Positions 3,527-21,810 of a DNA stretch of 42,480 bases are shown here, piece after piece. The notes beneath the pieces were generated by a model that worked only from the letters and a program-made list of their open reading frames with translations, had not been told where the DNA came from and did not search any database. The first letter of the stretch is position 1. The number at the start of each line of letters is the position of its first letter. The DNA is taken from the NCBI GenBank assembly GCA_001770815.1, contig MESD01000215.1:1-42480 (forward strand). The letters are read 5' to 3'. This stretch comes from Burkholderiales bacterium RIFCSPHIGHO2_12_FULL_69_20 (GTDB taxonomy: Bacteria > Pseudomonadota > Gammaproteobacteria > Burkholderiales > Burkholderiaceae_C). The position numbers were made by a program, and so were the translations under genes.

Positions 3527-6500
3527 TTGAACACCACCCCCCCACCGATCTTTCGCGGCGTCGGCGAGCAGCCCCGCTTCCGGCTCACCCGACTGGCTGC
3601 AGCCAGCGCCTGCGTGATGGTCGGCATCAACGCGCAAGCGCAGCAGGCTGCCGCGCCAGCGGCGCAGACGGTGGTGGTCACCGGCATTCGCGGCAGCCTG
3701 GAGACGTCGCTGAGCCTCAAACGTGACGCGCAAGGCTGGGTGGACGGCATCACGGCCGAAGACATCGGCAAGTTCCCCGACACCAACCTGGCCGAGTCGT
3801 TGCAGCGCATCAGCGGTGTGTCGATCGACCGCAGCATCGGCGAAGGTTCGCGCATCACCGTGCGCGGCGCCGGTCCCGACCACAACCTGGTGCTGCTCAA
3901 CGGCCGGCAGATGCCCGCCTCCAGCATTGCCGACACCGCCGCGTCCAACTCCCGGGCCTTCGACTTTGCCAACCTGGCGTCGGAATCGATTTCCGCGCTC
4001 GAGGTCTACAAGACCAGCCGGGCCAGCACGCCCACCGGCGGCATCGGCGCCACCGTCAACATCAGGACCGCCAAACCACTGGAAGCGCGCCGCAGGGTGG
4101 CCAGCGTCGGCATCAAGGGGGTGCTCGACAAGTCGAACGACCGCCTGCCCGATGCGATCCAGGGCAGCGGCATCACGCCCGAGATCTCCGGCATCTACAG
4201 CAACATCTTTGCCGACGGCAAGTTCGGCATCGCCATCAGCGGCAGCTATCAGGAGCGCAACCTGGGCTACAACCAGGCGGCGGTGCCGGGTGGCTGGCGG
4301 CCCTTTGCCGGCGACGAGAACAACTGGGGCACCATCCCCCAGCCCGGCACGCCCGGCTCGGAGAACATCACCAACCGGCCCAAGGCGGGTGACCTGTACT
4401 CGGTGCCGCAAAACCTGAACTACAGCGTCAATGGCCTGCAGCGTCAGCGCACCAACGGCCAGCTCACGCTGCAGTACGCGCCGTTCAAGGGCCTCACCGC
4501 CACGCTGGACCACACCTACTCCGAGAACAAGATCCAGACCAAGCGGCACGAACTGTCGGCCTGGTTCAACTTCGGCCCCTCGGTCAGCAGCTGGACCGAC
4601 GGCCCGGTGGCCGCGCCCAGGTTCTACGCCGAGACCATCGTGCCGCCCACCAGCGACATCGCGATGGCAGGAGCGGCCTTTGCCACCCGCAATCAGAACC
4701 AGTCCACCGGCCTGAACGTGGCCTGGAAGGTGTCCGACCGGCTGCGCGTGGAGCTGGACGCCCACAGCTCCACCGCCACTTCGGGTGCCGACAGCCCCTA
4801 CGGCTCCAATGCCACACTGGGCACCGCCAGCTTCAACCGCGGCACCACCAGCGTCGACTTCACCAACGACTTCCCGGTGCTGGGCATCGCGGGATCGGCC
4901 ATCGACGCGTCGCTGATGCAGGTCACCGGCTCGTCGTTCCGCAACAGCTACATGAAGTCCGGCGTGGACCAGGTGCAGGCCAAGGGCAAGTGGGAGCTGG
5001 ACGACAGCTCGGGCCTGGACTTCGGCGTCAGCCTCACCAAGGTGAAGAACCGCACCGCCTACGGTTTCGTGCAGCGGGACACCTGGGGCGGCGCCACCAA
5101 TCCCGGCGACTACCCCGACGATGTCTGGAAGGCCGACACCATCCGCCCGTATTTCGGCAGCATCGGCGGCAGCGACAGCACGGCGTTGTTCAACCAGTTC
5201 TTCACCTTCGATTTCGAGCGGGTGCGCGCGCTGGCCTCGGCCGCGGGTGGCAACTCCGCGCTGTACCTGCCGCCCACCGACTTCCAGGTCGACAGCCGGG
5301 TGCAGGAGAAATCGCAGAGCGCCTACCTGCAGTACAACAAGGGCTGGGAGTCGTGGGGCCTGCCGATGCAGCTCGCCGCCGGCCTGCGCTACGAGACCAC
5401 CGACGTCACCTCCACTGCCCTGGTGCCCACTGCCACCGGCATCACCTGGGTGGCCAACAACGAGTTCTCGGTGCTGTTCGGCCCGCCGGGCTTCACCACG
5501 CTCAAGGGCAGTTACAGCCACGTGCTGCCCAGCATCGATTTCGACGTCGACCTGCGCCGCGACACCAAGTTCCGCGCCAGTTATGGCGAGAGCATCGGCC
5601 GGCCGGTGTGGGATGCCATCCAGGGCGGGCAGACCCTGAACCAGCTCGCGCGGCTCGATGGCGGCACCGGTGCGCAGGGCAACCCGGCGCTCAAGCCGCT
5701 GAAGTCCAAGAACCTCGACCTGTCGCTGGAGTACTACTACGCCAAGGCCAGCTATGCGGCGGTGGGCGTGTTCGTCAAGAACGTCAGCAACTACATCGGT
5801 GTCACCAACACCAAGGGCACGCCGTTCAACCTGACCACGCCCGCCAACGGCACGCTGTTCAAGGAGGCCGTGGCGCAGGGCTGCGTCTCGTCCGATATGG
5901 GCTGCATCCGCAACTACATCTTCGCCAACTACGACGGCCGCAACGGCGTGCTGGCCGACAAAAACCTCGACGGCAGCCTGAAGACCGACACCAACGGCAA
6001 CTTCAGCGGCAGCATCGCCGGGCAGCCCGGTGACCCGGTCGCCAGCTTCGACATCACCACCCAGGCCAACCAGCGCTCGGCGCGCATCGACGGCCTGGAG
6101 TTCAACGTCCAGCACATGTTCGGCAAGAGCGGCTTTGGACTGTCGGCCAACTACACCAAGGTGAACTCCGGCCTGACGTACGACAACGCCAGCCGGGGCG
6201 AGCAGTTCGCGCTGGTGGGCCTCAGCGATTCGGCCAACCTGGTCGGCTTCTACGAGAACGACAAGTGGAGCGTGCGCCTGGCCTACAACTGGCGCGACAA
6301 GTTCCTGTCGGGCCTGACCGACGGTGCCGGCGCCAACCCGGCCTACACCGAAGCCTATGGCCAGATCGACGTGTCGGTGGGCTACAACTGGAACGACAGA
6401 CTGAGCTTCCAATTCGAAGGCATCAACCTCAACGATGGCGTCCAGCGACTGCACGGTCGCACCAAGGAACAAGTGCTCTTCGTCACCCAGACCGGGCCGC

Positions 6501-6532
6501 GCTACATGTTCGGGGCACGCTACAAGTTCTGA
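3527..6532 (+). CDS. TonB-dependent outer membrane receptor (carbohydrate type)
   Basis: A 1001-residue receptor that would carry a sugar ligand through the outer membrane using TonB energy. It starts at TTG: the nearby ATG at 3522 meets a stop after one codon, and AGGAG at 3517-3521 is well spaced from TTG 3527. The N-terminus has a basic stretch and a hydrophobic segment ending in ...INAQAQ, a signal peptide. The mature protein begins with TVVVTGIRGSL, then a plug domain (IGKFPDTNLAESLQRISGV, TVRGAGPDHNLVLLNGRQ), then a long beta-barrel ending in the aromatic C-terminus GARYKF. The sequence style fits the TIGR01782 group common in Xanthomonas and Caulobacter. It leads the halogenase-SapC-cupin-halogenase set and has its own LacI operator. 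The ligand is inferred to be a beta-1,3-glucan oligosaccharide from the neighbours; no residue seen here proves it. Confidence 0.93.
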   Translation: MNTTPPPIFRGVGEQPRFRLTRLAAASACVMVGINAQAQQAAAPAAQTVVVTGIRGSLETSLSLKRDAQGWVDGITAEDIGKFPDTNLAESLQRISGVSIDRSIGEGSRITVRGAGPDHNLVLLNGRQMPASSIADTAASNSRAFDFANLASESISALEVYKTSRASTPTGGIGATVNIRTAKPLEARRRVASVGIKGVLDKSNDRLPDAIQGSGITPEISGIYSNIFADGKFGIAISGSYQERNLGYNQAAVPGGWRPFAGDENNWGTIPQPGTPGSENITNRPKAGDLYSVPQNLNYSVNGLQRQRTNGQLTLQYAPFKGLTATLDHTYSENKIQTKRHELSAWFNFGPSVSSWTDGPVAAPRFYAETIVPPTSDIAMAGAAFATRNQNQSTGLNVAWKVSDRLRVELDAHSSTATSGADSPYGSNATLGTASFNRGTTSVDFTNDFPVLGIAGSAIDASLMQVTGSSFRNSYMKSGVDQVQAKGKWELDDSSGLDFGVSLTKVKNRTAYGFVQRDTWGGATNPGDYPDDVWKADTIRPYFGSIGGSDSTALFNQFFTFDFERVRALASAAGGNSALYLPPTDFQVDSRVQEKSQSAYLQYNKGWESWGLPMQLAAGLRYETTDVTSTALVPTATGITWVANNEFSVLFGPPGFTTLKGSYSHVLPSIDFDVDLRRDTKFRASYGESIGRPVWDAIQGGQTLNQLARLDGGTGAQGNPALKPLKSKNLDLSLEYYYAKASYAAVGVFVKNVSNYIGVTNTKGTPFNLTTPANGTLFKEAVAQGCVSSDMGCIRNYIFANYDGRNGVLADKNLDGSLKTDTNGNFSGSIAGQPGDPVASFDITTQANQRSARIDGLEFNVQHMFGKSGFGLSANYTKVNSGLTYDNASRGEQFALVGLSDSANLVGFYENDKWSVRLAYNWRDKFLSGLTDGAGANPAYTEAYGQIDVSVGYNWNDRLSFQFEGINLNDGVQRLHGRTKEQVLFVTQTGPRYMFGARYKF

Positions 6533-6576
6533 CGAAACGCCCGCCGCCGGCTGGCACCCGGCAGGCCTGCGACTCG

Positions 6577-6612
6577 ATGGGTGACGCGATGGGTGACGGG
6601 ATGGGTGATGCA
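6577..6612 (+). repeat. 12-bp tandem repeat x3 with three in-frame start codons
   Basis: Three near-identical units (ATGGGTGACGCG, ATGGGTGACGGG, ATGGGTGATGCA) each hold an in-frame ATG at 6577, 6589 and 6601, encoding MGDA-MGDG-MGDA. No strong ribosome binding site separates the three, so the true start of the halogenase is undecided. Copy-number change would keep the frame. Confidence 0.85.
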
Positions 6613-8148
6613 GTCAGGCGGGTCGTGATCATCGGCGGCGGCTCGGCCGGCTGGCTGGTGGCCGCCGTGCTCGCGGTCGACCATGCCGCGGCCACGGCCG
6701 AGGGCCTGCAGATCACGCTCCTGGAAGCCCCCGGCATCCCGCCCATCGGCGTGGGCGAGGGCACCTGGCCCAGCATGCGCGACACGCTGCGCAAGATCGG
6801 CCTGGCCGAGGCCGATCTGGTGCGCGACTGCGACGCCGCGTTCAAGCAGGGGTCACGCTTCGACGGCTGGGTCAGCGGCGCTGCGGGCGACCACTACAGC
6901 CACCCCTTCGCGCTGCCGCAGGGCTACACCGAGGCCGATCTGGTCGGCACCTGGCTGGCACGCCATGCCGACCAGCCGTTTGCCGAGGTGGTGAGCTTCC
7001 AGCCCCGACTGTGCGCGCACGGCCTGGCGCCCAAGCAGGTGACGACGCCCGAGTACGCTGCCGTGGCCAACTACGGCTACCACTTCGACGCGGGCAAGTT
7101 CGGCCTGCTGCTGCGCCGGCACTGCACCGAGCAGCTGGGCGTGCGGCATGTATGCGACGAGATGATTGGCGTGCAGTCCCACGCCAACGGCGACATCGCA
7201 TCGCTGCAGACGCGCGCCCACGGTGCGTTGGCCGCTGACCTGTTCATAGACTGCACCGGCCTGCCCTCGCTGCTGCTGGGCCAGCACTACGGCGTGCCGC
7301 TGGTGTCGCAGCGCCAGGTGTTGTTCAACGACCGCGCGCTGGCGCTGCAGGTGCCGTACCCGCAGCCCGACAGCCCGATCGCGTCGCAGACCCTGGCCAC
7401 GGCGCAAGGCAACGGCTGGATCTGGGACATCGGCCTGCCCACCCGGCGCGGCGTGGGCCATGTGTATTCCAGCGCGCACTGTTCCGACGACGCAGCCGAG
7501 CAGGCGCTGCGCCGCCACATCCGCGCCAGCGGCGGCCCCGACGACCTGCCCGCGGCACGCCAGCTCCGGTTCGAGCCCGGCTACCGGGCCGAGTTCTGGC
7601 ACCGCAACTGCGTCGCCATCGGCCTGTCGTCAGGCTTCATCGAGCCGCTGGAAGCCTCGGCGCTGGCGCTGATCGAACTGTCGGTGCATGCGCTCAGTGC
7701 GCAGATGCCCGCCACGCGCGCGGCAATGGACATCGTCGCCCGCCAGTTCAACGAGGCCTTCAGCTACCGCTGGGAGCGGGTGATCGACTTCCTGAAGCTG
7801 CACTACGCCCTGAGCCAGCGGCGCGACACCGACTACTGGCGCGACCACACCGCGGCCGCGTCGATGCCCGAACGCCTGCGCGAGCTGCTCACGCTGTGGC
7901 GCCACCGGCCCCCGTCGCACTACGATCTGGCGTGCATCGAGGAGGTGTTTCCCTCGGCCAGTTACCAGTACATCCTGTACGGCATGGGATTCCGCCCCGA
8001 AGCTGGGAGCCGGCGGCGTGAAGACCCGGCGCTGGCCGAGCGCTGCTTTCAAGAGGCCGCGGCCCTGGCCGCCCGGATGCGGCCTGCCCTGCCCGGCAAC
8101 CGCGCCCTGATCACCCACATCCAGCGCCACGGCCTGCCAAAGATTTAG
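6577..8148 (+). CDS. Flavin-dependent tryptophan halogenase-family protein 1
   Basis: A 523-residue protein (from the first of three possible ATGs) of the FADH2-dependent halogenase family, which make HOCl or HOBr from halide and a flavin hydroperoxide and pass it along a tunnel to an aromatic substrate. Visible marks are the FAD-binding VVIIGGGSAGW near the N-terminus, GVGEGTWPS, the conserved lysine of AFKQGSRF (Lys90) expected to be the halogenating lysine, and the catalytic-type Glu of GFIEPLEAS (Glu359). The family signature WxWxIP appears here as WIWDIGL (281-287), with Gly in place of Pro. It follows the TonB receptor by 44 bp on the same strand and precedes the SapC gene by 51 bp. Receptor-linked halogenases of this type are known in Xanthomonas and Caulobacter; their natural substrate is unclear. 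Cytoplasmic: no signal peptide is seen. Confidence 0.88.
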   Translation: MGDAMGDGMGDAVRRVVIIGGGSAGWLVAAVLAVDHAAATAEGLQITLLEAPGIPPIGVGEGTWPSMRDTLRKIGLAEADLVRDCDAAFKQGSRFDGWVSGAAGDHYSHPFALPQGYTEADLVGTWLARHADQPFAEVVSFQPRLCAHGLAPKQVTTPEYAAVANYGYHFDAGKFGLLLRRHCTEQLGVRHVCDEMIGVQSHANGDIASLQTRAHGALAADLFIDCTGLPSLLLGQHYGVPLVSQRQVLFNDRALALQVPYPQPDSPIASQTLATAQGNGWIWDIGLPTRRGVGHVYSSAHCSDDAAEQALRRHIRASGGPDDLPAARQLRFEPGYRAEFWHRNCVAIGLSSGFIEPLEASALALIELSVHALSAQMPATRAAMDIVARQFNEAFSYRWERVIDFLKLHYALSQRRDTDYWRDHTAAASMPERLRELLTLWRHRPPSHYDLACIEEVFPSASYQYILYGMGFRPEAGSRRREDPALAERCFQEAAALAARMRPALPGNRALITHIQRHGLPKI

Positions 8149-8199
8149 CATGAAGCCACTTTCGCTGCCCCGCCGGTCGCACGGACGGGCACCACCGAC

Positions 8200-8910
8200 A
8201 TGACCAACACCGTGCTGCTGAACAACGTCGACCACCACGACCTGCGCTTGCGCACCCAGCGCAGCGCGGCCTGGGGCGACGGCGTGATGCTGGCCCACGC
8301 CGTGCCGGCCGAGTTTCGCGAGCTGCAGGCGCATTACCCCATCGTGTTCCAGAAGTCGGCCGATGGCACCACCTTCCATCCGGTGGCCTTGCTCGGCTTT
8401 CAGGACGGACAGAACCTGTTTCTCGACGCCGACGGCTGGGACGCCGGCTACCTGCCGCTGGCCATCGAGCGCGAGCCCTTCCTCATCGGCCGCGACGGCG
8501 GCGAGCTGCTGGTGCATGTCGACCTGGACAGCCCGCGCCTCAGCCGCAGCGACGGCGAGCCGCTGTTCCTGCCGCACGGCGGCACGACCGACACCCTGGA
8601 ACGCATCAACTCGGTGCTGCTGGCCCTGCACGAGGGGCTGCAGGCCACGCCGGCCTTCGTCGCGGCGCTGCTGGCGCACGACCTGCTCGAATCCTTCGTG
8701 CTCGACGTCGAGCAGCCCGACGGCTCGCAGCAGCGGCTGGCAGGCTTCTACACCATCGCCGAAGAGCGGCTGGCCGCGCTGGACGGCGCCGCGCTGGCGC
8801 AGTTGCACCGTGCCGGCCACCTGCAGGCGGTGTTCATGGCGGTGGCGTCGCTGTCGAACTTGGCTGCGCTGATCGAGCGCCAGAACCGGCGGCTGGCGGG
8901 CGGTGCCTGA
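8200..8910 (+). CDS. SapC-family protein
   Basis: A 236-residue protein that fits the SapC family (Pfam PF07277): an opening MTNTVLLNNVDHHDLRL, a PIVFQKSADG block followed by FHPVALLGFQDGQNLF, and WDAGYLPLAIEREPFLIGR. The family is named for an S-layer locus product of Campylobacter, but in proteobacteria it is usually found next to TonB receptors and tryptophan halogenases, as here; its biochemical role is not established. No signal peptide or membrane segment is seen. Its stop overlaps the GTG start of the next gene by eight bases, so the two are probably translated together. ATG 8200 has only a weak upstream GGGCA stretch as ribosome binding site. Confidence 0.85.
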   Translation: MTNTVLLNNVDHHDLRLRTQRSAAWGDGVMLAHAVPAEFRELQAHYPIVFQKSADGTTFHPVALLGFQDGQNLFLDADGWDAGYLPLAIEREPFLIGRDGGELLVHVDLDSPRLSRSDGEPLFLPHGGTTDTLERINSVLLALHEGLQATPAFVAALLAHDLLESFVLDVEQPDGSQQRLAGFYTIAEERLAALDGAALAQLHRAGHLQAVFMAVASLSNLAALIERQNRRLAGGA

Positions 8911-9961
8911 ACCGATGCAGACCGTGACGGTCACCGGTGCGCAGGCGCAGGCGCAGGCGCAGGCGCAGGCGCAGGCCCACGCGCAGGCGCAGGCCCACGC
9001 GTTGGCGGCGGCGCTGGGCCGGGCCGATCAGCCGGTGGTGTTGCGTGCGCTGGTGGCGCACTGGCCGGTGGTGCAGGCGGGCCTGCGCTCGGCACAGGCC
9101 GCCTGCGATCACCTGCTCGGTTTCTACCGCGATGCCACCGTGGACGCCTGGCTGGGTGACCCCGGGATCGGCGGGCGCTTCTTCTACAACGATGACTTCA
9201 GCGGCTTCAACTTCCGCCCCGAGCGCCTGCGGCTGGACACGGTGCTGCAGCGGCTGCTGCAACCGCGGCAGGACGCTGCGCCACCAGCCCTGTACGTGGG
9301 CTCGACCACCGTCGACACCTGCCTGCCGGGCTTTCGCGCCGCCAACCACCTCGACCTCGGTGGCCGCGATGCGCTGATGAGCCTGTGGCTGGGCAACCGC
9401 ACCCGCATCGCCGCCCACCACGACCTGCCCGACAACCTGGCCTGCGTGGCGGCCGGGCGCCGACGCTTCACGCTGTTTCCGCCCGATCAGGTGGCCAACC
9501 TCTACATCGGCCCGCTCGACCTGACACCGGCCGGGCAGGCGATCAGCCTGGTCGACTTCGCCCAGCCCGACCTGCAGCGCCATCCCAAGTTTGCGCAGGC
9601 GATGGCTGCGGCGCAGGTGGTCGACCTGGGCCCGGGCGACGCCCTCTTCATCCCCAGCCTGTGGTGGCACCAGGTCGAGGCGCTCGATCCGTTCAACCTG
9701 CTGATCAACTACTGGTGGCGCGACGCGCCGGCGCACATGGACAGCCCGATCAACGCGCTGATGCACGCGATGCTGAGCGTGCGCGACCTGCCCCCGGCCC
9801 AGCGGCGGGCCTGGGCGGCGCTGTTCGACCACTACGTGTTCGGCGCCGGGGCGCACGACACCGACCACATCCCGCCCCATGCCCGGGGCGTGCTGTCGCC
9901 CCTGCAACCCGATGCCGCACGCATGCTGCGCGCGCGGCTGCTGCGCAAACTGAACCGCTGA
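8903..9961 (+). CDS. Cupin-like / JmjC-type Fe(II) oxygenase-like protein
   Basis: A 352-residue protein of the cupin_8/JmjC-like fold seen in FIH-type 2-oxoglutarate oxygenases. A metal triad is readable: H172 and D174 in AAHHDLPDN, and the distal His256 in SLWWHQVEAL (counted from GTG 8903). The blocks RRRFTLFPPDQVANLY and LLINYWW are typical of the family. The start may be GTG 8903, overlapping the end of the SapC gene, or ATG 8915 four codons later; neither has a clear ribosome binding site. Residues 13-32 are an Ala-Gln/Ala-His dipeptide run encoded by a hexanucleotide repeat. Proteins of this type recur between SapC and halogenase genes behind TonB receptors. The substrate is unknown; a hydroxylase acting on the same compound or protein as the halogenases is only a guess. 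Confidence 0.83.
   Translation: MPEPMQTVTVTGAQAQAQAQAQAQAHAQAQAHALAAALGRADQPVVLRALVAHWPVVQAGLRSAQAACDHLLGFYRDATVDAWLGDPGIGGRFFYNDDFSGFNFRPERLRLDTVLQRLLQPRQDAAPPALYVGSTTVDTCLPGFRAANHLDLGGRDALMSLWLGNRTRIAAHHDLPDNLACVAAGRRRFTLFPPDQVANLYIGPLDLTPAGQAISLVDFAQPDLQRHPKFAQAMAAAQVVDLGPGDALFIPSLWWHQVEALDPFNLLINYWWRDAPAHMDSPINALMHAMLSVRDLPPAQRRAWAALFDHYVFGAGAHDTDHIPPHARGVLSPLQPDAARMLRARLLRKLNR
8939..8998 (+). repeat. Hexanucleotide tandem repeat, ten units, in the cupin gene
   Basis: Ten units of GCGCAG or its variant GCCCAC encode six Ala-Gln pairs, then Ala-His, two Ala-Gln and Ala-His. Slippage by whole units would change the length of the N-terminal extension without breaking the frame. Confidence 0.92.
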
Positions 9962-9968
9962 GATCCGC

Positions 9969-11507
9969 ATGAACCAGTTCACCGCCCCCGGCCCCGTTCC
10001 CAACCCCGGAGGCGAGCGTCCACCGGTGCGGCGCGTCGTCATCGCCGGTGGCGGCACGGCCGGCTGGATGGTGGCGGCCTGCCTGTCCAAGGTGCTGGGC
10101 AAGGCGCTGGACATCCGGCTGGTCGAATCCGACGAGATCGGCACGGTCGGCGTCGGCGAGGCCACCATTCCCACGTTGCTGACCTTCCATCAGCTGCTGG
10201 ACATCAACGAGCAGGAGTTCATGGCCGCCACGCAGGCCACCTTCAAGCTGGGCATCGGCTTCGAAGGCTGGCGCGACCAGGGGCAGGACTACATCCACTC
10301 GTTCGGCCTGACCGGCCAGGACCACTGGACGGCGGGCTTCCAGCACTTCTGGCTGAAGGGCCGCGACCGGCAACTGGCGGGCGACTACGGCGACTACTGC
10401 CTGGAGCTGAAGGCCGCGCGGCACAACCGCTTTGCGCACCTGCCGCGCGCCGGCATGAACTACGCCTACCACCTCGACGCCAGCCTGTATGCGCAGTTCC
10501 TGCGGCGCTTCAGCGAGCGCCTGGGCGTGCAGCGCATCGAGGGCCGCATCACCAGCGTGCAGGCCGATGCCGCCAGTGGGCATATCCGCGCCATCCAGCT
10601 CGACTCGGGCGCCCGCATCGAAGGCGACCTGTTCATCGACTGCACCGGCTTCCGCGGCCTGCTGATCGGCGAGACGCTGAAGGTGGGCTACGAGGACTGG
10701 TCGCACTGGCTGCCCTGCGACAGCGCGGTGGCGGTGCAGACTGCATCGGTGGGCGAGGCCGTGCCCTACACCCGGTCGATGGCGCACGAAGCGGGTTGGC
10801 AGTGGCGCATTCCGCTGCAGCACCGGGTGGGCAACGGCCTGGTCTACTGCAGCCAGTACTTGCCCGACGCGCAGGCCCGGCAGCGGCTGCTGGACCGCGT
10901 GCAGGGCCCCACGCTGACGACACCGCGGCTGATCAAGTTCACGCCCGGCCAGCGGCAGGCCACCTGGCGCGGCAACTGCGTGGCCATCGGCCTGTCCAGC
11001 GGCTTCATCGAGCCGCTGGAGTCGACCAGCATCCACCTGATCCAGCGCGGCATCGTTCGGCTGATGCAGCTGTTTCCGGCCGCCGGCATCAGCCCCGCCG
11101 ACGTGGACGAGTACAACCAGCAGGCGCGAGCCGAGATCGAGCACATCCGCGACTTCATCGTGCTGCACTACCACGTCACCCAGCGCGACGATTCGCCGTT
11201 CTGGCGCGGTTGTCGGTCGATGGACATCCCGCCCTCGCTGCGCCACCGCATCGACCTGTTCCGCGACAGCGGGCGGGTGTTCCGCACCGGCAACGAGCTG
11301 TTTGCCGAGAACTCGTGGATCCAGGTGATGCTGGGCCAGGGCATCGTGCCGCGCCGCCATCACCCGGTGGCCGACCTGATGGGCGACGCCGAGCTGGCGC
11401 ACTTCCTCGACGGCATCCGGGCCCAGGTCGACCGCACGCTGGCGCAGCTGCCGCAGCACGAGGCCTATGTGCGCCAGTACTGCGGCGTGGCGGCCGCGCC
11501 GCGCTGA
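9969..11507 (+). CDS. Flavin-dependent tryptophan halogenase-family protein 2
   Basis: A 512-residue halogenase with all family marks: FAD-binding VVIAGGGTAGWMVA near residue 20, GVGEATIPTLL, the reactive lysine in ATFKLGIGFEGW (Lys93), an intact WxWxIP motif (WQWRIP, 277-282) and the conserved Glu of GFIEPLESTS (Glu351). It begins 7 bp after the cupin gene, so it is the last gene of the receptor-halogenase set. It is clearly paralogous to the first halogenase but closer to the classic consensus. The family is known to halogenate indoles or other aromatics; the substrate here cannot be read from sequence. A partner flavin reductase is needed; none is adjacent, though flavin-type oxidoreductases lie further along (23140-24355). 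The first 20 residues are Pro/Gly-rich and look disordered. Confidence 0.92.
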   Translation: MNQFTAPGPVPNPGGERPPVRRVVIAGGGTAGWMVAACLSKVLGKALDIRLVESDEIGTVGVGEATIPTLLTFHQLLDINEQEFMAATQATFKLGIGFEGWRDQGQDYIHSFGLTGQDHWTAGFQHFWLKGRDRQLAGDYGDYCLELKAARHNRFAHLPRAGMNYAYHLDASLYAQFLRRFSERLGVQRIEGRITSVQADAASGHIRAIQLDSGARIEGDLFIDCTGFRGLLIGETLKVGYEDWSHWLPCDSAVAVQTASVGEAVPYTRSMAHEAGWQWRIPLQHRVGNGLVYCSQYLPDAQARQRLLDRVQGPTLTTPRLIKFTPGQRQATWRGNCVAIGLSSGFIEPLESTSIHLIQRGIVRLMQLFPAAGISPADVDEYNQQARAEIEHIRDFIVLHYHVTQRDDSPFWRGCRSMDIPPSLRHRIDLFRDSGRVFRTGNELFAENSWIQVMLGQGIVPRRHHPVADLMGDAELAHFLDGIRAQVDRTLAQLPQHEAYVRQYCGVAAAPR

Positions 11508-11573: not shown

Positions 11574-13931
11574 TCAGATGGCGTACTTGGGCCGCTCGTC
11601 CTTGTCCCACAGGCCCCACTGCGTGCCCACTTCGCCCTCCTGCCCGCGCTTCCAAGGCTCGTCGAACGACGAGAACCAGAACAGCTTGACGCCCTCGCGG
11701 CGGCTCCACTGCTGTGCCTCGACGAAGTAGCGCATCGCGTGGTCGGCCGCGGGCACCGCTGCGCCCACGGCCTCGCCTTGGCCGGGCCAGCCCGTCTCGG
11801 TGATGACGACAGGCTTGTCCTCGCCAGCGGCGGCCTTCACCAATGCGTGCATGCGGCGCAGGTACTGGGCCGCGTGGTCGATGTGGGCGCCTTCCCAGAA
11901 GGGGTAGCAGTTGGGCAGCAGCACGTCACAGGCGGCCACCAAGGCCGGGCGCTCGAGGAACTGGAAGTAGGCATCAACGCAACCCACCTGCACCTCGGCG
12001 GGCACGGCGGCCCGCACGCGGGCCAGGCAGGCCAGCAGGTCCTGCTCGGGCAGCTCACCACGCAGCAGCACCTCGTTGCCCACCACGGCGATGTCGACCA
12101 TGCCGTCCTGGGCCAGCCGGATCAGCGCGGCCAGCTCGCGCTCGTTGCGCGCGCGGTCCTGGCTCAACCAGGCCCCCACCATCGTCTTCAGGCCCTTGGT
12201 GCGCGCCAGCCGGGGAATCGCTTCATGGCCTTCGGTGCACGAAAAGGAACGCACCCACCGGGTATGCGGCGCGATGAGATCGATGCGGCGACCGACGTCG
12301 GCGGCCAGCAGTTGGTCGCCAGCGCGCTGGCCCTCTGGATAGGCGCTGAAGCACAGGCCGTACAGGCCGGCCTGGAACTGCTCGGCAAACAGCGGCTGGA
12401 TGTCGGCCGGCACCTTGCCTGCCAGCGGCGACACCTCCGCACCCGGCAGCAGCAGGCCATGCTCGGCCAGCCAGGGCCGGGCCCCCGAACCCTGGGTGGA
12501 CGCCGAGCCGCGCAGCTTGCGCCGCTCGAGTTCGGCGTGCACCTCGGTGGCGCGCTGCTCGTCCAGGTCGTAGTCGCGCATGACCCACATCGCCAGCAGC
12601 GTGCCGAAGATGGGCACGCCGGAATAGAACAACCGCAGGCCATCAACAGCGCCCGCGGGCTGCACGGCGGCACCCGGGGTGAACGCCACCAGCGACATGA
12701 TCGCGCCGCTCAGCAGGCCCGCGATCGCGAAGCCGAACTTCACCATCCACCAATAGATCGCGCCGAAGATGCCTTCGCGCCGCTTGCCGGTGGCCAGCTC
12801 GTCGAGGTCGCAGACGTCGGCCGTCATCGACATCATCAAGGTGAACAGGCCGCCGATGCCGAACGAGAAGAACGGCAGCGCGAACATGAACATCCAGGGC
12901 TTGCCAGGCACCATCAGGAACCACAGCAGCACGTAGCCGATGAGGGAGATGCCCTGCGACAGCATGAAGGCGTTCTTCTTGCCCATCTTCCTGGACATCC
13001 AGGCCACGGTGGGGATGACAGCAAAGGTGGTGACCAGCGCGCCCACGCTGCCGAACAGCGTGGGCCAGATCCAGGCCGCCACCGTGTTGCCGTTGAAGAG
13101 GTGGTAGACGACGATGAAAAACGAGAATGCCGCCACCGTGTTGAAGGCGTTGAAGATCAGGAAGGTGGCAAAGCACAGCTTGCGGAAGGGCTTGGAGCTG
13201 AAGGCCTCCTTGAAGCCGGCGAGGATCTCCTTCATGCCGCCCCCCAGGTTGCCCAGGGTCAGCGGGACCAGGTGCTCATCGTGCTGGGTCGAGCGGCTGG
13301 GCAGGAAGATGGCGGGCACCATGGCCAGCAGCATGCAGATCACGCCGACCCAGATGGACAGCGTGCGCGTGGCGGTGTCGGCGTTTTCGAACCACTTGGG
13401 GTCGTACATCACCACCCAGAACCACGGCGCGATGACCCAGGCCCATTGGCCTATCCACTGCGCCACGGCCATGATGCTGGTGCGCTCGTGGAAGTCGTCG
13501 CTCATCTCGTAGCCCATGGCCACGTAGGGGATGCTGAACAGCGTCAGCCCCAGGTAGAACACGAACGACCAGCACAGGAAATAGACGAAGTTGTAGCTCA
13601 CCCCGTCGGCACGGTAGAGCTGCCACATCGCCACGAACGAGAGGCCCATGACGATGGCCCCGATGAACACATATTGCTTGCGCCGGCCCCATTTGGAGCG
13701 CGTGTTGTCGGAGATGAAACCCATGATCGGGTCGGTGACCGAATCGAAGACCCGCGGCAGGAAAAACAGCACGCCCCACATCCAGCCGGGGAAACCCATG
13801 TCCTGCACCAGCACCACCATGAAGATGCCCAGGGCCGCCGGGAACATCTGGTTGGCCAGCATGCCCAGCCCGAAGGCCACCTTGTGACCGAAGGGAACCT
13901 TGTGGGCTGGGGCGGTGGTGGATGCGGTCAT
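11574..13931 (-). CDS. Fusion of a GPH/MelB-type sugar symporter with a GH17 glycosidase domain
   Basis: One uninterrupted 785-residue frame. Residues 1 to about 455 are a glycoside-pentoside-hexuronide:cation symporter of the MFS superfamily, with many hydrophobic helices and the MelB-like block DPIMGFISDNTRSKWGRRK near residue 65. The last helix ends before MRDYDLDEQ (Met451), a short charged linker follows, and from about residue 500 a GH17 domain runs to the end. Both GH17 glutamates are visible: Glu620 in VVGNEVLLR (acid/base) and Glu712 in VITETGWPG (nucleophile). The GH17 part is highly similar to the separate enzyme at 14939-15946 (shared VRSFSCT-GHE, VGNEVLLR, NCYPFWEG). MFS proteins usually end in the cytoplasm, so the enzyme would sit at the inner mouth of the transporter and could cleave beta-1,3-oligoglucosides as they enter. 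It is last in the operon, 60 bp after the preceding GH17 gene. An internal restart giving free GH17 is not excluded. Confidence 0.88.
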   Translation of the reverse strand: MTASTTAPAHKVPFGHKVAFGLGMLANQMFPAALGIFMVVLVQDMGFPGWMWGVLFFLPRVFDSVTDPIMGFISDNTRSKWGRRKQYVFIGAIVMGLSFVAMWQLYRADGVSYNFVYFLCWSFVFYLGLTLFSIPYVAMGYEMSDDFHERTSIMAVAQWIGQWAWVIAPWFWVVMYDPKWFENADTATRTLSIWVGVICMLLAMVPAIFLPSRSTQHDEHLVPLTLGNLGGGMKEILAGFKEAFSSKPFRKLCFATFLIFNAFNTVAAFSFFIVVYHLFNGNTVAAWIWPTLFGSVGALVTTFAVIPTVAWMSRKMGKKNAFMLSQGISLIGYVLLWFLMVPGKPWMFMFALPFFSFGIGGLFTLMMSMTADVCDLDELATGKRREGIFGAIYWWMVKFGFAIAGLLSGAIMSLVAFTPGAAVQPAGAVDGLRLFYSGVPIFGTLLAMWVMRDYDLDEQRATEVHAELERRKLRGSASTQGSGARPWLAEHGLLLPGAEVSPLAGKVPADIQPLFAEQFQAGLYGLCFSAYPEGQRAGDQLLAADVGRRIDLIAPHTRWVRSFSCTEGHEAIPRLARTKGLKTMVGAWLSQDRARNERELAALIRLAQDGMVDIAVVGNEVLLRGELPEQDLLACLARVRAAVPAEVQVGCVDAYFQFLERPALVAACDVLLPNCYPFWEGAHIDHAAQYLRRMHALVKAAAGEDKPVVITETGWPGQGEAVGAAVPAADHAMRYFVEAQQWSRREGVKLFWFSSFDEPWKRGQEGEVGTQWGLWDKDERPKYAI

Positions 13932-13991: not shown

Positions 13992-14942
13992 TCAGGCGTC
14001 TGCGGCCTGTGACAGCAAGTCCGGGTACAGCGCCTGCATCACCAGCTTGGGTCGGCGGTCGGCCGTGAACAGGCCCCAGTGCTTTTCGGGCTCCAGCGGG
14101 TCGGACGAGCCCTTCCAGTTCTCGTCGAAGGCCTCGAAGACGAAGCACAGCAGTCCTTCTGCACGGGTCCAGGCCATCAGGTCCGCGTAGTAGATGGCCT
14201 GCAACGCCTGCACCGCGTGCTCGGCGTGCATGCCACGCCCGTTGCTGTTGGTGCACCAGCCTGCTTCGGTGATGACGATGGGTTTGCCGGGGTACAACCG
14301 CGTCACGCTGGCCACGTTGTCCTGGGTGTAGTCCAGCGCCTCGTGGATGTGCTTGTATTCCCACACCGGGTAGGTGTGCAGCGAGATGAAGTCGAGCTCG
14401 GGCACCAGGTCGCGCAGCTTGTGCTGCCAGGGCACGTAGTTCTCGCAGAAGGTGACGGGCTGGCGCACCGCCGCCTTCACGCGGCGCACGTAGTCGATCA
14501 TCGTCGGCACCGGCACGAAGTGGTCGGTCCAGTCGACCGTGGCCTCGTTGCCCACCGCCACCGAGAACACGATGCCGGGGTAGCGGTTGGCCAGCGCGAT
14601 GAGCCGGTCGAGCTCGGCGGCATTCTCGGCGCGGCTGGCTTCGAGTTGCACTTCGGTGAAGGTGGCACCCCAGGGGCAGCCGAAGTTGTTCATCTCGGCA
14701 CCGAGATAGGCGCCCAGCATCACCTGGAAGGGCAGGCTGTCTTCCTCGATGACCTGCAGCACCCGTTCGGCGTGCGGGCTGCAGTCGTACAGGCGCAGCA
14801 GCGGCCAGTGGCGGCGCAGGATCGCCAGGTCTTCGCGGATCTCGGCCAGCGAGGGGTAGGTTTTCTCGCCCGGGTTCTGGCCATTGCGGTAGCCCGAGTA
14901 GCAGATGGCGTTTCCAGTGGGCAGCTTCAGCATGGGTTTCAT
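13992..14942 (-). CDS. GH17-family beta-1,3-glucan hydrolase or transglycosylase, divergent
   Basis: A 316-residue enzyme starting MKPMLKLPTGNAICYSGYR. Its ATG overlaps the stop of the upstream GH17 gene in an ATGA junction, which fixes the start and suggests translational coupling; the much longer open frame upstream is a shadow. The catalytic pair is Glu133 (VAVGNEATVDW) and Glu226 (VITEAGWCTN). The sequence differs clearly from the other two GH17 domains here (FGCPWGATFTEV, DFISLHTYPVWEYKHIH), so it may have another linkage or chain-length preference. GH17 enzymes act on beta-1,3-glucans as hydrolases or transglycosylases with retention. No signal peptide is seen, so it should act in the cytoplasm on imported oligosaccharides. 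Confidence 0.87.
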   Translation of the reverse strand: MKPMLKLPTGNAICYSGYRNGQNPGEKTYPSLAEIREDLAILRRHWPLLRLYDCSPHAERVLQVIEEDSLPFQVMLGAYLGAEMNNFGCPWGATFTEVQLEASRAENAAELDRLIALANRYPGIVFSVAVGNEATVDWTDHFVPVPTMIDYVRRVKAAVRQPVTFCENYVPWQHKLRDLVPELDFISLHTYPVWEYKHIHEALDYTQDNVASVTRLYPGKPIVITEAGWCTNSNGRGMHAEHAVQALQAIYYADLMAWTRAEGLLCFVFEAFDENWKGSSDPLEPEKHWGLFTADRRPKLVMQALYPDLLSQAADA

Positions 14943-15946
14943 CCGAACTTGAGGACGCCGTCCTTGTCCCACAGGCCCCAGTAGGCACCGACATCGCCCT
15001 CGGCGCCGACCTTCCAGGCTTCGTCGAAGGCCGCAAACCAGAAGACCTCGATGCCGTCTTCGGCCGCCCAGCGGCAGGTGTCGACGAAGTACTGCATGGC
15101 CCCTTCGCGTGACGGCACCGCGGCATGGAAGGCGCTGCCCTGGTCGGGCCAGCCGGTCTCGCTGATCACCACGCGTTTGCCCGGCGCCGCCGCCCGCGTG
15201 CGCGCCACCATGGTCTGCATGTAGGCCAGCGCCTGCTCGCGCGGGCAGCCTTCCCAGAAGGGATAGCAGTTGGTCAGCACCACGTCGCAGGCGGCGGTGA
15301 TGCGGGGATGCTTCTCGAACAGGTAATAAGCGTCGACATAACCCACCGCCACGCCGGGCAGCGCAGCTTTCACGCGCTGGATGCAGGCCAGCAGGTCGTC
15401 CTCGCTCATGTCCTCGCGCAGCAGCACCTCGTTGCCGACGGCGACGATGTCGGCATGGCCGGCGCGCGCGACCTCGATCACGCCCTGCAGCTCGGCCTCG
15501 TTGATCTTGGCGTCGGTGCCCAGCCAGGCGCCCACCAGCGTCTTGAAGCCGAGTTCGTGGGCGATGCGTGGTGTCTGCTCGTGGCCGTCGGTGCAGGAGA
15601 AGCTGCGCACCCAGCCGGTGTGCGGCCGGATGATCTGCAGCCGTTCGCGGATCGGCGCCTCGCCGATCTGGTCGCCGGGCTGCTGGCCTTCGAGGTAGGG
15701 GCTGAAGCACAGCCCATGCACGCCGCGCTGCAGCGTGGTGGTGAACTCGGCGGCCAGCACGTCGCGTGTCTGGTCCGTCCAGACCTCGGGGCCGGAACGG
15801 GCCCAGCGGCCTTGCTGCACTTCGCCAGCCAGGGGCTGGGCGCCGGAGTGCACGCCTTGCGTTGGCTGCAGGTGCTCGCCCTGCTCGTGGGTCTGCGTCA
15901 CGCTCTGCGCCGTCACGCGGCTCGGGGGGAATCCTGGTCGGGACAT
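14939..15946 (-). CDS. GH17-family beta-1,3-glucanase-like enzyme
   Basis: A 335-residue GH17 protein. The chosen start MSRPGFPPSR (ATG at 15946) lies 11 bp after the GH16 stop and has a purine-rich GAGAGA just upstream; longer open frames run through the GH16 gene and are not used. The first 70 or so residues are Gln/Thr/Gly-rich and probably disordered. The barrel follows, with VRSFSCTDGHEQ, Glu173 in VAVGNEVLLR as acid/base and Glu263 in VISETGWPDQ as nucleophile, ending WGLWDKDGVLKFG. It is the close paralogue of the GH17 half of the transporter fusion. Without a signal peptide it is placed in the cytoplasm. Probable role: trimming or remodelling beta-1,3-glucan oligosaccharides before the GH1 enzyme and the phosphorylase finish them. 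Confidence 0.88.
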   Translation of the reverse strand: MSRPGFPPSRVTAQSVTQTHEQGEHLQPTQGVHSGAQPLAGEVQQGRWARSGPEVWTDQTRDVLAAEFTTTLQRGVHGLCFSPYLEGQQPGDQIGEAPIRERLQIIRPHTGWVRSFSCTDGHEQTPRIAHELGFKTLVGAWLGTDAKINEAELQGVIEVARAGHADIVAVGNEVLLREDMSEDDLLACIQRVKAALPGVAVGYVDAYYLFEKHPRITAACDVVLTNCYPFWEGCPREQALAYMQTMVARTRAAAPGKRVVISETGWPDQGSAFHAAVPSREGAMQYFVDTCRWAAEDGIEVFWFAAFDEAWKVGAEGDVGAYWGLWDKDGVLKFG

Positions 15947-15957
15947 GGTGGTCTCTC

Positions 15958-16977
15958 TCAGCGCGGCTTGGCGCGGGTCTTGGGCGTGGTCTTGGGCGTG
16001 GTCTTGGCCGGGGGTTTGCGCGGCGGCTTGGGCGCGGCCTTGGCAAGTGGTGCGGCCTTCTTCTGCCACGGGAACTTGCCTTGGCCGATGGGCTTGACCG
16101 GGCCGTAGCCGCCAACCTTGTCGTAGACGCGCACGTAGTCGACCACCAGTTCGGCCGGGAACCGGGTCTGGTCGTTCGGCGCGCCGGGGAAGTTGCCGCC
16201 CACGGCCACGTTCATCAGCAGGTAGAAGGGCTGGTCGAAGGGTGCAGGCCAGGGGTGCAGGTCGGCGGGGCCACTGGGCTCCAGGCCGGCGCCGTCCCGC
16301 CGTTTGCTGCAGCTCCACCAGTGGTCGTAGGTGCAGGTCTGCACGCCGTCGACGTAGAAGCGGATCTCACCCGGCTCCCATTCCACGCTGTAGACGTGCC
16401 AGTCGGACACGCCATTGCCCGCGGGCAGCGGGTGCACGGTGGTGATGAGCGAGCGCTTGGGGAAGGTGCTGCCGAAGTGGATGCTGTTGAGCACCTCGTG
16501 CGGCTGCTCGCCCGCGATCTCCATCAGGTCGATCTCGCCGCTGGCCGCCCAGCCGCCGTAGGTGTCGTCGACCGGCAGCATCCACAGCGCGGGCCACAAG
16601 CCCTTGCCCCAGGGCACCTTGGCACGGAACTCGATCCGCCCGTAGCGGGTGGCGAACAACACCATGCCATCGCGCGCCTTGGTCTTGAGCCGCGCCGAGG
16701 TGTAGCCGCAGCCGTGCAGCGGCGCCTTCACGGCGCGGATGCGCAGGCAGCTGTCGCGCACGGTGACGTTTTCGGGCTCGTGCGTGTAGTACTGCAGCTC
16801 TTCGTTGCCCCAGCCTTCGACCCAGGCGTGGTTCTTGTAGTCGTAGAACCCGTTGCCGATGTCGAAGTCCCACTTGCTGCGGTCGACCGTGTCGCCATCG
16901 AACTCGTCGTGCCAGACCAGCTTCCAGCGCGTCTTGGTGGGTGCCGTCTTGGCAGGTGGTGTCTTGCCGATGCTCAT
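15958..16977 (-). CDS. GH16-family endo-beta-glucanase (laminarinase-like) with a basic Lys/Pro tail
   Basis: A 339-residue enzyme starting MSIGKTPPAKTAPTKTRW, five bases after the GH1 stop. The GH16 fold is shown by LVWHDEFDG at the start, NEELQYYTHEPENV, LWPALWMLP, and the catalytic signature SGEIDLMEIAG. The signature has the beta-bulge form E-I-D-L-M-E, with Glu148 as nucleophile, Asp150 assisting and Glu153 as acid/base, the form found in laminarinases and lichenases. The C-terminal 35 residues or so are a very basic Lys/Pro/Ala/Thr tail, partly encoded by 12-bp repeats. No signal peptide is seen, which is unusual since most bacterial GH16 endoglucanases are exported. It may act on imported oligosaccharides, or leave the cell by a route not visible here. 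Endo-beta-1,3-glucanase is the best guess; mixed-linkage activity is possible. Confidence 0.88.
   Translation of the reverse strand: MSIGKTPPAKTAPTKTRWKLVWHDEFDGDTVDRSKWDFDIGNGFYDYKNHAWVEGWGNEELQYYTHEPENVTVRDSCLRIRAVKAPLHGCGYTSARLKTKARDGMVLFATRYGRIEFRAKVPWGKGLWPALWMLPVDDTYGGWAASGEIDLMEIAGEQPHEVLNSIHFGSTFPKRSLITTVHPLPAGNGVSDWHVYSVEWEPGEIRFYVDGVQTCTYDHWWSCSKRRDGAGLEPSGPADLHPWPAPFDQPFYLLMNVAVGGNFPGAPNDQTRFPAELVVDYVRVYDKVGGYGPVKPIGQGKFPWQKKAAPLAKAAPKPPRKPPAKTTPKTTPKTRAKPR
15977..16012 (-). repeat. 12-bp tandem repeats in the GH16 tail
   Basis: On the + strand the unit GTCTTGGGCGTG occurs at 15977-15988 and 15989-16000, followed by a partial third copy. On the coding strand it gives repeated Thr-Pro-Lys-Thr residues in the basic tail of the GH16 enzyme. 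Confidence 0.75.
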
Positions 16978-16982
16978 GCGGA

Positions 16983-18413
16983 TCACCGGTTGGCGGCGTC
17001 GACCGCCGCTTTGGCGCCACTGCGCTGGCGCTGCAGAAAGCCCTGGTACCAGCGCGCGCTGTCCTTGGGGGTGCGGCGCTGGGTGGCGTAGTCGACAAAC
17101 ACGATGCCGAAGCGCTTGGCGTAACCCGAGGCCCATTCGAAGTTGTCGAGCAGGCTCCACACCATGTAGCCGGCCATCGGCACGCCCTGCCCCAGCGCGG
17201 CGCCCACCGCGGCGATGTGGCTGGCGATGTACTCGGTGCGGTCGGGGTCGTGCACCCGGGCCTCGCCGTCCTCCATCACGCACTGGTCCTTGAAGGCGCC
17301 GCCGTTCTCGGTGACGTAGATCGGCGGCACGCGGTAGTCGCGGTGCAGGCGCAGCAGCAGGTCGGTCAGGCCCTCGGGGTACACCTCCCAGCCCATGTCG
17401 GTGATCGGCAGCCCGCTGGCCTGCACGTCGACCGGACCGGCCGCGCTGACCACGTTGCGCGAGTAGTAGTTGATGCCCAGGAAGTCCATCGCCGTGGCGA
17501 TGGCGGCCAGGTCACCCGGCTCGGTGCGCGGCGCGTCGGCACCGAGGTGGTCGAGCACGTCCTGCGGATAGCGCGCCCGAAACAACGGATCGAGGTACCA
17601 GCGCAGCAGCAGGCCGTCTTCGAGCCGGGCCTGCGCGATGTCGGCCGGTGAATCGGTGGCGGGCTGCACCGGCGCCAGGTTCAGCACGATGCCCAGCCGG
17701 GCGCGACAGCCCGCCGCGCGCAGCGCCTGCAGCGCCAGGCCGTGGCTGAGCAGCAGGTGGTGCGAGACCTGCATCGCCATCGCCCGGTCGCGCAGCCCCG
17801 GCGCGAACACGCCGTCCTCGTGCCCCAGCTTGGCGATCACCCAGGGCTCGTTGTGGGTGGTGATGGCCGCCACGCGGTCGCCCAGCCGGCGTTGCACGCC
17901 CAGCGCGTAATCCACGAAGTGCTGCACCGTGGCGCGCGCCGCCCAACCGCCCTGCGCCTGCAGCGCCTGCGGCAGGTCCCAGTGGTTGAGCGTGAGGTAG
18001 GGCTGGATGCCCCGCGCCAGCAGGCCGTCGACCAGACGCTCGTAGAAGGCCAGGCCGGCCTCGTTCCAGGCGCCCTGGCCCAGTGGCTGCACCCGCGGCC
18101 ACGACACCGAGAAGCGGTACGCGTCCACCCCCAGCGCAGCGATCAGGTCGAGGTCTTCGTCGAGGCGGTGGCAGTGGTCGCAGGCGATGTCGCCGTCGCT
18201 GTGGTCGGCGATCGCGCCGGGCACGCGGCAGAAGCGGTCCCAGATCGACTCGCCCTTGCCGTCCTCGGTGGCCGCGCCCTCGATCTGGAAGGCGCTGGTG
18301 GCCACGCCCCAGACAAAACTGGGTGGGAAATGCGCAGCGGGCGCAGCGGGTGCAGCAGGCGCAGCGGGCGCAACGGGCTGGATGCCGGCGCGGGGATTCA
18401 AGGGCATGAGCAT
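16983..18413 (-). CDS. GH1-family beta-glucosidase
   Basis: A 476-residue retaining beta-glucosidase. FPPSFVWGVATSAFQIEGA is the GH1 N-terminal signature. The acid/base is Glu189 in TTHNEPWV, the nucleophile Glu369 in YVTENGGAF, and the sugar-binding WSLLDNFEWASGY block follows. A Pro-Ala run at residues 14-25, encoded by a 9-bp repeat, precedes the barrel. The start is MLMPLN at 18413 or the second Met at 18407; no strong ribosome binding site is seen. It follows the permease gene by 48 bp and lacks a signal peptide, so it should release glucose from short beta-linked oligosaccharides in the cytoplasm. Preference for beta-1,3 links is inferred from the operon. Family assignment is firm. Confidence 0.95.
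   Translation of the reverse strand: MLMPLNPRAGIQPVAPAAPAAPAAPAAHFPPSFVWGVATSAFQIEGAATEDGKGESIWDRFCRVPGAIADHSDGDIACDHCHRLDEDLDLIAALGVDAYRFSVSWPRVQPLGQGAWNEAGLAFYERLVDGLLARGIQPYLTLNHWDLPQALQAQGGWAARATVQHFVDYALGVQRRLGDRVAAITTHNEPWVIAKLGHEDGVFAPGLRDRAMAMQVSHHLLLSHGLALQALRAAGCRARLGIVLNLAPVQPATDSPADIAQARLEDGLLLRWYLDPLFRARYPQDVLDHLGADAPRTEPGDLAAIATAMDFLGINYYSRNVVSAAGPVDVQASGLPITDMGWEVYPEGLTDLLLRLHRDYRVPPIYVTENGGAFKDQCVMEDGEARVHDPDRTEYIASHIAAVGAALGQGVPMAGYMVWSLLDNFEWASGYAKRFGIVFVDYATQRRTPKDSARWYQGFLQRQRSGAKAAVDAANR
18334..18378 (-). repeat. 9-bp tandem repeat, five units, in the GH1 N-terminus
   Basis: Five units of the form GCAGCGGGC (+ strand) at 18334, 18343, 18352, 18361 and 18370 encode the Pro-Ala-Ala run before the GH1 barrel. 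The unit is a multiple of three, so copy change keeps the frame. Confidence 0.85.
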
Positions 18414-18461: not shown

Positions 18462-19286
18462 CTACTTGACCGCGCCGGTGGTCAGGCCCGAGATCAGTTG
18501 CCGCGACGACAGCATGAACAGCACCACCAGCGGCAGCGTGGCAATGGCCGAGCCGGTCATCAGCGCACCCCACTCGGTGTTGACAGGGCTCTGCAGGCTG
18601 CGCAGCGCCAGCGGCAGCGTGTACATGTCGGGCGAGCGCATGACGATCAGCGGGCCGATGAAGTTGTTCCAGCTGGCGATGAAGGTGATCAGCCCCAACG
18701 TGCCCAGTGCCGGCTTGAGCAGCGGCAGCACGATGCGCCAGTAGATGCCCAACTCGCCGCAACCGTCCATGCGCGCGGCCTCGATCAAGTCCTTGGGGAT
18801 GGCCGTGGTGACGAACTGGCGCATCAGGAAGATGCCGAAGGCGCTGGCCGCACCGGGGATGTAGAGCGCACGCGGCTGGTCGATCCAGCCCAGCGCGTCC
18901 ATGATCATGAAGGTGGGGATCATGTTCATGAACGACGGCAGCAGCATGGTGCCCATCACCAGCGCGAACAGCGCGTTCTTGTGCTTGAAGTCGAACCGCG
19001 CGAAGGCATAGCCACCCATCGAGCAGAACAGCAGCGTCAGCACGGTGGAGGCGATGGCCACGTACAGGCTCCAGCCCAAATTGCGCCAGAACGGCAGCCG
19101 CTCGGTGAGGATCTTCAGGTTGCCCGGTAGATCGTCGCCGAACCAGATCGGCGGCGGCAGGCTGAAGATCTCGGTGCGCGAGTGCGTGGCAAACACGAAC
19201 ATGAAATAGAACGGCGCCAGCATGATCAGCGCGCCGATGCCCACCAGCGCGTAGGCGGCCATGGGGGCGAGGCGATGGGGGTTCAT
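18462..19286 (-). CDS. ABC sugar transporter permease, MalG-like
   Basis: A 274-residue inner-membrane permease with about six hydrophobic helices. The start MNPHRLAPM at 19286 has GGGGAGA seven bases upstream, better than the longer open frame that reaches into the previous gene. The EAA loop that docks the ATPase is EAARMDGCGELGIYW starting at Glu169. The C-terminus LISGLTTGAVK is typical of MalG-like subunits of the carbohydrate uptake CUT1 group. It follows the partner permease by 17 bp. With the binding protein and MalF-like subunit it should import oligosaccharides from the periplasm. No ATP-binding subunit is encoded in the operon. Confidence 0.94.
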   Translation of the reverse strand: MNPHRLAPMAAYALVGIGALIMLAPFYFMFVFATHSRTEIFSLPPPIWFGDDLPGNLKILTERLPFWRNLGWSLYVAIASTVLTLLFCSMGGYAFARFDFKHKNALFALVMGTMLLPSFMNMIPTFMIMDALGWIDQPRALYIPGAASAFGIFLMRQFVTTAIPKDLIEAARMDGCGELGIYWRIVLPLLKPALGTLGLITFIASWNNFIGPLIVMRSPDMYTLPLALRSLQSPVNTEWGALMTGSAIATLPLVVLFMLSSRQLISGLTTGAVK

Positions 19287-19303
19287 CGTGCGATCTCCCC
19301 GCC

Positions 19304-20239: not shown

Positions 20240-20264
20240 CGGCAACTCGGTTCGCACGGCCGGG

Positions 20265-21572: not shown

Positions 21573-21662
21573 GCCTGGGTCTCCGAGGGCCGGGCGTGCA
21601 GCGCCTGCACCGGCCTTGAGTTGGGCCGTGCCAGTCTCCAGACGGCGGCACGGCATTGCGCG

Positions 21663-21676
21663 TGAAAGCGCTTTCA
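21663..21676. promoter_or_regulatory. LacI-family operator in front of the transport and hydrolase operon
   Basis: TGAAAGCGCTTTCA, identical over all 14 bases to the site at 3412-3425. It starts one base after the -10 box on the - strand, so a bound repressor would cover the transcription start of the eight-gene operon. Confidence 0.88.
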
Positions 21677-21677
21677 A

Positions 21678-21707: not shown

Positions 21708-21810
21708 TCGAGGGAAAGCGAGCAGGCCCTGCGCTGGCCCGCTGTGCGGCGGCGACGGCGCGGTGCCTGTGCAGCCGCTGCCGCACAGGGCCACCCGGGC
21801 CGGACCCGCC

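Follow-up and report, generated by a model that had tools for sequence, protein, structure and literature searches.

A MelB-like carrier fused to a GH17 glycosidase in a laminarin-type operon of Burkholderiales: reality, relatives and proposed role

Why should a sugar carrier have a glycosidase attached to it? The question is raised by a single open frame of 785 codons (11574..13931, minus strand; ATG start, TGA stop) in the window, that is, the whole stretch of DNA analysed here, which comprises bases 1 to 42,480 of the 66,633-base contig C215 in a draft genome of 5.53 Mb. The initial annotation read the frame as one polypeptide made of a MelB-like carrier and a GH17 enzyme, and both Pfam domains do lie inside it. 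Such a protein, carrier and enzyme in one, lends itself to asking whether uptake is made faster by cleavage at the exit.

The fused protein and its published counterpart

The MFS_2 domain (PF13347) was matched at residues 20-458 with 222.2 bits, above the curated cut-off of 27, and Glyco_hydro_17 (PF00332) with 43.9 bits, above its cut-off of 28.2, the best stretch covering residues 692-785 only. The GPH model TIGR00792 of NCBIfam gave the carrier 183.2 bits, below its curated cut-off of 231.35; the carrier is thus a divergent GPH-like protein, whose family membership gives no substrate. The GC content at the three codon positions of the frame (0.62/0.45/0.92) is gene-like.

The protein was divided into three parts. 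The carrier half (residues 1-460; 12552..13931, minus) has 12 predicted membrane helices and was assigned from Pfam MFS_2, the helices of an AlphaFold2 model and Foldseek matches to MelB. The linker (residues 461-510; 12402..12551, minus) is modelled as helical at 458-480 and with low confidence after that. The GH17 barrel half (residues 511-785; 11577..12401, minus) was assigned from Pfam GH17 and a Foldseek match to 4wtr. The model, computed from an 80-row alignment, has a mean pLDDT of 84; its pTM of 0.59, with pLDDT <50 at 475-481, means that the placing of the two halves is loosely predicted. In this predicted model the carrier half shares the fold of the melibiose symporter MelB (9old, 7l16; TM 0.83 to 9old by target length), which differs in carrying no enzyme and is 16-17% identical to it. 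The GH17 half has the same barrel as the Rhizomucor miehei GH17 glucanosyltransferase (4wtp/4wtr; TM 0.88 to 4wtr by target length, 26% identity), although the latter is fungal, free and a transferase.

The model helices and hydropathy place the GH17 half after the last of the 12 predicted helices. The predicted carrier loops hold 11 Lys/Arg residues inside, with the C-terminal tail left out, versus 3 outside. From the 12 helices and the basic inside (even) loops, both ends of the fusion are predicted to be cytoplasmic, in agreement with the earlier proposal that the enzyme hangs on the cytoplasmic end of the carrier.

The two glutamates claimed to be catalytic and intact are both present. Glu620 (12072..12074, minus), in the motif VGNEV, which by the GH17 family rule we take to be the catalytic acid/base, and Glu712 (11796..11798, minus), in ITETGWP, by the same rule presumably the nucleophile, are each invariant in 80/80 aligned fused proteins.

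The fusion is real. A frameshift or sequencing error between the halves, which the initial annotation named as grounds for doubt, and an assembly error are ruled out as its source, since the same fusion recurs in a single frame in other assemblies, including those of named isolates (Rubrivivax pictus, R. rivuli, R. albus, Winogradskyella and Cecembia). Named genomes were scanned and gave 501 relatives; the best-ranked 80 (Pseudomonadota 34, Bacteroidota 46) were kept, and all of them had carrier and GH17 domain within one frame. These relatives were ranked by their match to the whole fused query; the figure of 80/80 therefore shows that the fusion is no artefact and is not a measure of prevalence.

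The architecture is also already in print, here being found in another bacterial group. The initial annotation knew of no characterised example; one is provided by FORMB_24740 (FbGH17B) of Formosa sp. Hel1_33_131, described as an N-terminal 12-helix MFS domain with a C-terminal GH17 domain encoded in a laminarin-use locus (Unfried et al. 2018, PMC6246565). The likeness, drawn from this published description, extends to both domains in one protein and to the laminarin locus. The two differ in that the nearest named relatives of the window genome are labelled Rhodoferax and Rubrivivax, and in that the window fusion has a LacI-type regulator, an ABC importer and a GH1 enzyme alongside. The Formosa paper states that the MFS-GH17 fusion is common in marine Flavobacteriia, its authors knowing of none from other bacteria (PMC6246565). 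In the open-licence PMC literature searched, an MFS-GH17 fusion from Burkholderiales was unreported, and there was no report of a second carrier class fused to GH17. What is added here is thus the spread of the fusion to Burkholderiales-type bacteria and, as described below, a second class of carrier joined to GH17.

Conservation and distribution

The carrier is the better conserved half of the fusion. The alignment consists of the window protein and 79 of the 80 relatives (L088, cut by a contig end, was left out). In it, 167/460 carrier columns are invariant, compared with 48/275 in the GH17 half and 0/50 in the linker. The mean identity between the two phyla, calculated from every second row of each phylum, is 76% for the carrier and 56% for the GH17 half. 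Flavobacteriaceae account for 16 of the 80 kept relatives, with identities of 63-66% to the window protein.

The one-frame class was rarer in samples that were not ranked by match to the fusion. At genus level it was found in 4/21 genomes (G000, G003, G008 and G016). In the three larger samples at most two candidates were scored per genome, and the counts are lower bounds: at least 10 of 399 family genomes (G000, G003, G184, G397, G213, G286, G405, G348, G390 and G072), taking a single near full-length match with no inside stops and an identity of at least 75%; at least 1 of 398 phylum genomes, the window's own, at E <= 1e-40; and at least 12 of 395 Bacteroidota genomes, including the centre genome G800, plus three variant fusions (G847, G858 and G1160). 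Left out of the counts were G028, in which the carrier runs off a contig end, G015, which has GH17 fragments only, and carrier pieces in G908 and G1126. The fragments in G015 (L010; G015:C96:7606-8166) are 69-78% identical to the fused domain, lie in two reading frames and have no carrier match beside them; they stem either from the decay of a copy or from an error in sequencing. Carriage of the fusion on plasmids was not borne out, as 3/72,556 plasmid records matched, with a best cover of 60%, and the best places listed matched the carrier half alone.

Origin and repeated joining

Trees were calculated for each half. The MFS trees were made from 73 of 135 extracted domains (a quick tree with a distant outgroup root) and from 67 rows (two added later); the GH17 trees had 99, 57 and 55 rows hand-picked from 366 extracted domains, or 50 rows (four added later). 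Two rows of the type of free GH17 no. 2 (see below) are included in the 57-row tree and are absent from the 55-row tree. Fusions on the window type of carrier are termed class-1, and those on a carrier ∼25% identical to the window's, class-2.

The fusion was initially thought to have arisen by local duplication and joining, with the gene at 14939-15946 as a close paralogue of its GH17 half. That gene, free GH17 no. 1 (14939..15946, minus; 335 aa), is 55% identical to the fused domain, which is no recent copy of its neighbour. Approximately unbiased (AU) tests, whose p values are somewhat optimistic because the groups were partly picked after earlier trees, reject both a single clade uniting the fused and the free GH17 domains of Burkholderiales type (p 2.7e-6) and the pairing of the window's fused GH17 with free GH17 no. 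1 as sisters (p about 2e-6), and the local origin was abandoned. In the GH17 trees the fused domains of both phyla group together, and those of class-1 stand apart from the window's free GH17 no. 1.

The carriers point to a different history. In the 73-domain MFS tree the fused class-1 carriers and nine unfused carriers form one clade (support 100), with the unfused ones interspersed among the fused. The Burkholderiales-type carriers form a set (SH-aLRT 98) that joins a row from Saprospiraceae (96), and both are nested within other Bacteroidota (89, 92). This nesting suggests that the finished fusion was transferred, SH-aLRT being the sole support for the direction of transfer in a tree with long branches outside the fused clade. 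The simplest reading would be that carrier and enzyme were joined once, early, in Bacteroidota, that Burkholderiales acquired the fusion ready-made and that the enzyme was lost several times; three of these losses (L141, L142 and L143) would fall in the window's family. The Bacteroidota fused domains group with the free GH17s encoded just downstream in quick trees (89, 88), but not in the careful 57-row tree; an old GH17 duplication within Bacteroidota is possible.

A second kind of fusion was found in four family genomes (G257, G176, G245 and G382), Pfam-checked, in which GH17 is joined to the class-2 MFS_2 carrier; no class-1 fusion was among the matches listed for these four. A class-2 query, with at most two or three candidates scored per genome, recovered the fusion from at least 3 of 250 family genomes, as one piece in G245 and as two pieces within one frame in G257 and G176. 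The GH17 domain of the G245 protein shares 76% identity with the window's free GH17 no. 1 and is flanked by GH16 and free GH17 no. 2, which is the slot that free GH17 no. 1 occupies in the window; the new carrier precedes it and a long low-complexity linker joins the two. The carrier-GH17 fusion at L146:7777-10242 (minus), separate from that of the window, has a long low-complexity linker and a GH17 that closely resembles free GH17 no. 1 of the window.

Partners appear to have been exchanged as well. In G858 and G1160 a class-1-type GH17 (support 99) is attached to the carrier of an otherwise unfused sister clade (support 100), and in G847 a GH17 of free type is attached to a class-1 carrier. 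The AU test rejects placing all fused GH17 domains in one clade (p 2.85e-5 with 57 rows, 0.001 with 55 rows). With the 57 rows, one clade of the four class-2 domains gives p 0.023, and one clade of the 20 class-1 domains is not rejected (p 0.478); support for this class-1 clade is 97 and 99 in quick trees with other row sets and weak (36/0) in the careful 55-row tree. Unfused arrangements also occur: separate carrier and GH17 genes adjoin at five loci (L196, L197, L198, L207 and L211), and carriers 81-86% identical to the window's occur without GH17 in 3/399 family genomes. The tether is thus dispensable in some lineages, and these carriers without GH17 are ready-made natural controls.

Judged by the carriers, the comparisons indicate at least two independent joinings and, judged by the GH17 domains, probably three or more. 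The second carrier class, the carrier exchange and the apparent losses together suggest that the joining was repeatedly made and unmade. Tethered-type GH17 on another carrier and the apparent enzyme losses were not found in print; what may be new to a specialist is that the joining was repeated.

Gene neighbourhood and proposed role

The fusion stands in a laminarin-type operon, as the initial annotation held, with GH1, GH16 and two free GH17 genes around it and a GH149 gene nearby. Directly upstream is free GH17 no. 2 (13992..14942, minus; 316 aa), which had been absent from the initial list. It forms a clade of its own (support 99) and has a differing motif, GNEATVDW, after the catalytic acid. 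The fusion and the two free genes are the three Pfam GH17 matches in the whole genome at E <= 0.001. Beyond free GH17 no. 1 follow, all on the minus strand, a GH16 gene (15958..16977; 58.9 bits in Pfam, cut-off 22; presumed start, frame open to 17283), a GH1 beta-glucosidase (16983..18413; 504.6 bits in Pfam and 593.9 bits to TIGR03356, cut-off 478.5), two ABC-type permeases (18462..20257), an ABC solute-binding protein (20265..21794) and a LacI-type regulator (21811..22866). On the plus strand, a GH149 beta-1,3-glucan phosphorylase-like gene (32..3223) scores 1120 bits to NF058639 versus a cut-off of 1150 and matches PDB 6hq6 at E 1.1e-219; it is near the contig end and is perhaps cut. Genes for a TonB receptor, SapC, Cupin_8 and two tryptophan-halogenase-like proteins (3527..11507, plus; Pfam), standing in a row, adjoin the operon.

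In the DNA fetched around the 80 relatives, a separate GH17 was found at 72/80 loci with one query and at 76/80 with five, and relatives of GH149 at 40/46 Bacteroidota and 8/34 Pseudomonadota loci. Inspection by eye showed no signal peptide at the starts of GH16, GH1 and both free GH17s, which fits cytoplasmic work on imported oligosaccharides; the GH149 phosphorylase fits their arrival in the cytoplasm too. Since GH16 and GH1 seemingly lack a signal peptide, the outside depolymerase of the pathway may be encoded elsewhere.

We consider it likely that the fusion is a two-domain laminarin-use protein of the FORMB_24740/FbGH17B kind, whose carrier takes up debranched β-1,3-gluco-oligosaccharides and whose cytoplasmic GH17 trims these where they leave the carrier. 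The N-terminal 12-helix MelB-fold symporter would take short debranched β-1,3-gluco-oligosaccharides over the inner membrane, and the GH17 barrel, held on its cytoplasmic end by the ∼50-residue linker, would shorten them as they emerge. Trimming would keep free oligosaccharide low at the carrier's inner mouth, and the products would pass to the GH1, free GH17 and GH149 enzymes encoded nearby. We infer the carrier's substrate, the cytoplasmic side of GH17 and the kinetic coupling; exo-β-1,3-glucosidase chemistry would follow by analogy with the Formosa counterpart. The GH17 of FbGH17B was measured to be a β-1,3-glucosidase of exo type that acts on debranched laminarin and not on the branched form (PMC6246565), and the same account has it freeing glucose from debranched-laminarin oligosaccharides (PMC6246565).

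Whether the joint itself matters is the harder question. GH17 tethering may have evolved at least two or three times, given two carrier classes, differing GH17 lineages and at least one carrier exchange, and this, if true, would mean a physical coupling between the uptake of β-1,3-gluco-oligosaccharides and their cleavage, with the enzyme clearing the carrier's inner mouth and so driving uptake. We put this forward tentatively, at somewhat under an even chance. That coupling drives uptake appears in the Formosa paper as a suggestion (PMC6246565). The five loci with adjoining separate carrier and GH17 genes are counted for the trimming mechanism, as linkage without fusion.

Alternatively, the fusion may simply secure equal dosage and membrane placement of two pathway proteins without kinetic coupling, a possibility that we take seriously while thinking it rather doubtful. 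The nine unfused carriers interspersed among fused ones, the linker without an invariant column and the long low-complexity linker of the L146 version all speak for this reading. The apparent repeated joining of MFS_2 carriers to different GH17 lineages, however, suggests a benefit of the physical link, of whatever kind.

Trimming could also be the wrong chemistry. A free 295-residue GH17 of Muricauda lutaonensis, MlGH17B, is a beta-1,3-glucanosyltransglycosylase and is 53% identical to the Formosa fused domain (PMC11005184). As described, it resembles the present case in having no signal peptide and in being encoded in a laminarin locus where it adjoins an MFS gene, and differs in being a free enzyme and a transglycosylase (PMC11005184). 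Its Tyr136 is a published transglycosylase signature. Its authors allow for undetected transferase activity in FbGH17B (PMC11005184), and the nearest solved fold to the window's GH17 half, 4wtr, is itself a transferase. The GH17 half might thus be a transglycosylase that, in the cytoplasm, re-forms imported oligosaccharides or makes them longer, for trapping or storage. We regard this as unlikely, since the published fused counterpart is reported to free glucose from debranched-laminarin oligosaccharides (PMC6246565) and the adjoining GH1 and GH149 are breakdown enzymes by family.

Cytoplasmic trimming, the preferred reading, also depends on the side of the membrane. The Formosa authors describe cleavage and transport as simultaneous and two enzymes as likely periplasmic, and their account leaves the side of the fused protein unsettled (PMC6246565). 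A periplasmic GH17 half that cuts before uptake, the carrier then importing glucose or a disaccharide, is nevertheless very improbable here: the 12 helices and the basic residues in the even loops predict both ends inside, and the two free GH17s of the window have no signal peptide by eye. Regulatory domains on transporters exist generally, but a GH17 half that acts as a sugar-binding sensor or gate controlling the carrier, with catalysis unneeded, can hardly be reconciled with two catalytic glutamates invariant in all 80 aligned proteins. Its Formosa counterpart is, moreover, active (PMC6246565).

At the far end of the window from the fusion lie two giant Ala/Gly-rich frames of 2879 and 2906 aa (25072-33711 and 33745-42465, both minus), neither of which has a Pfam match. 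The first starts with a LEPR-XLL domain (NCBIfam), and stretches toward the C-termini of the two are 46-58% identical to each other.
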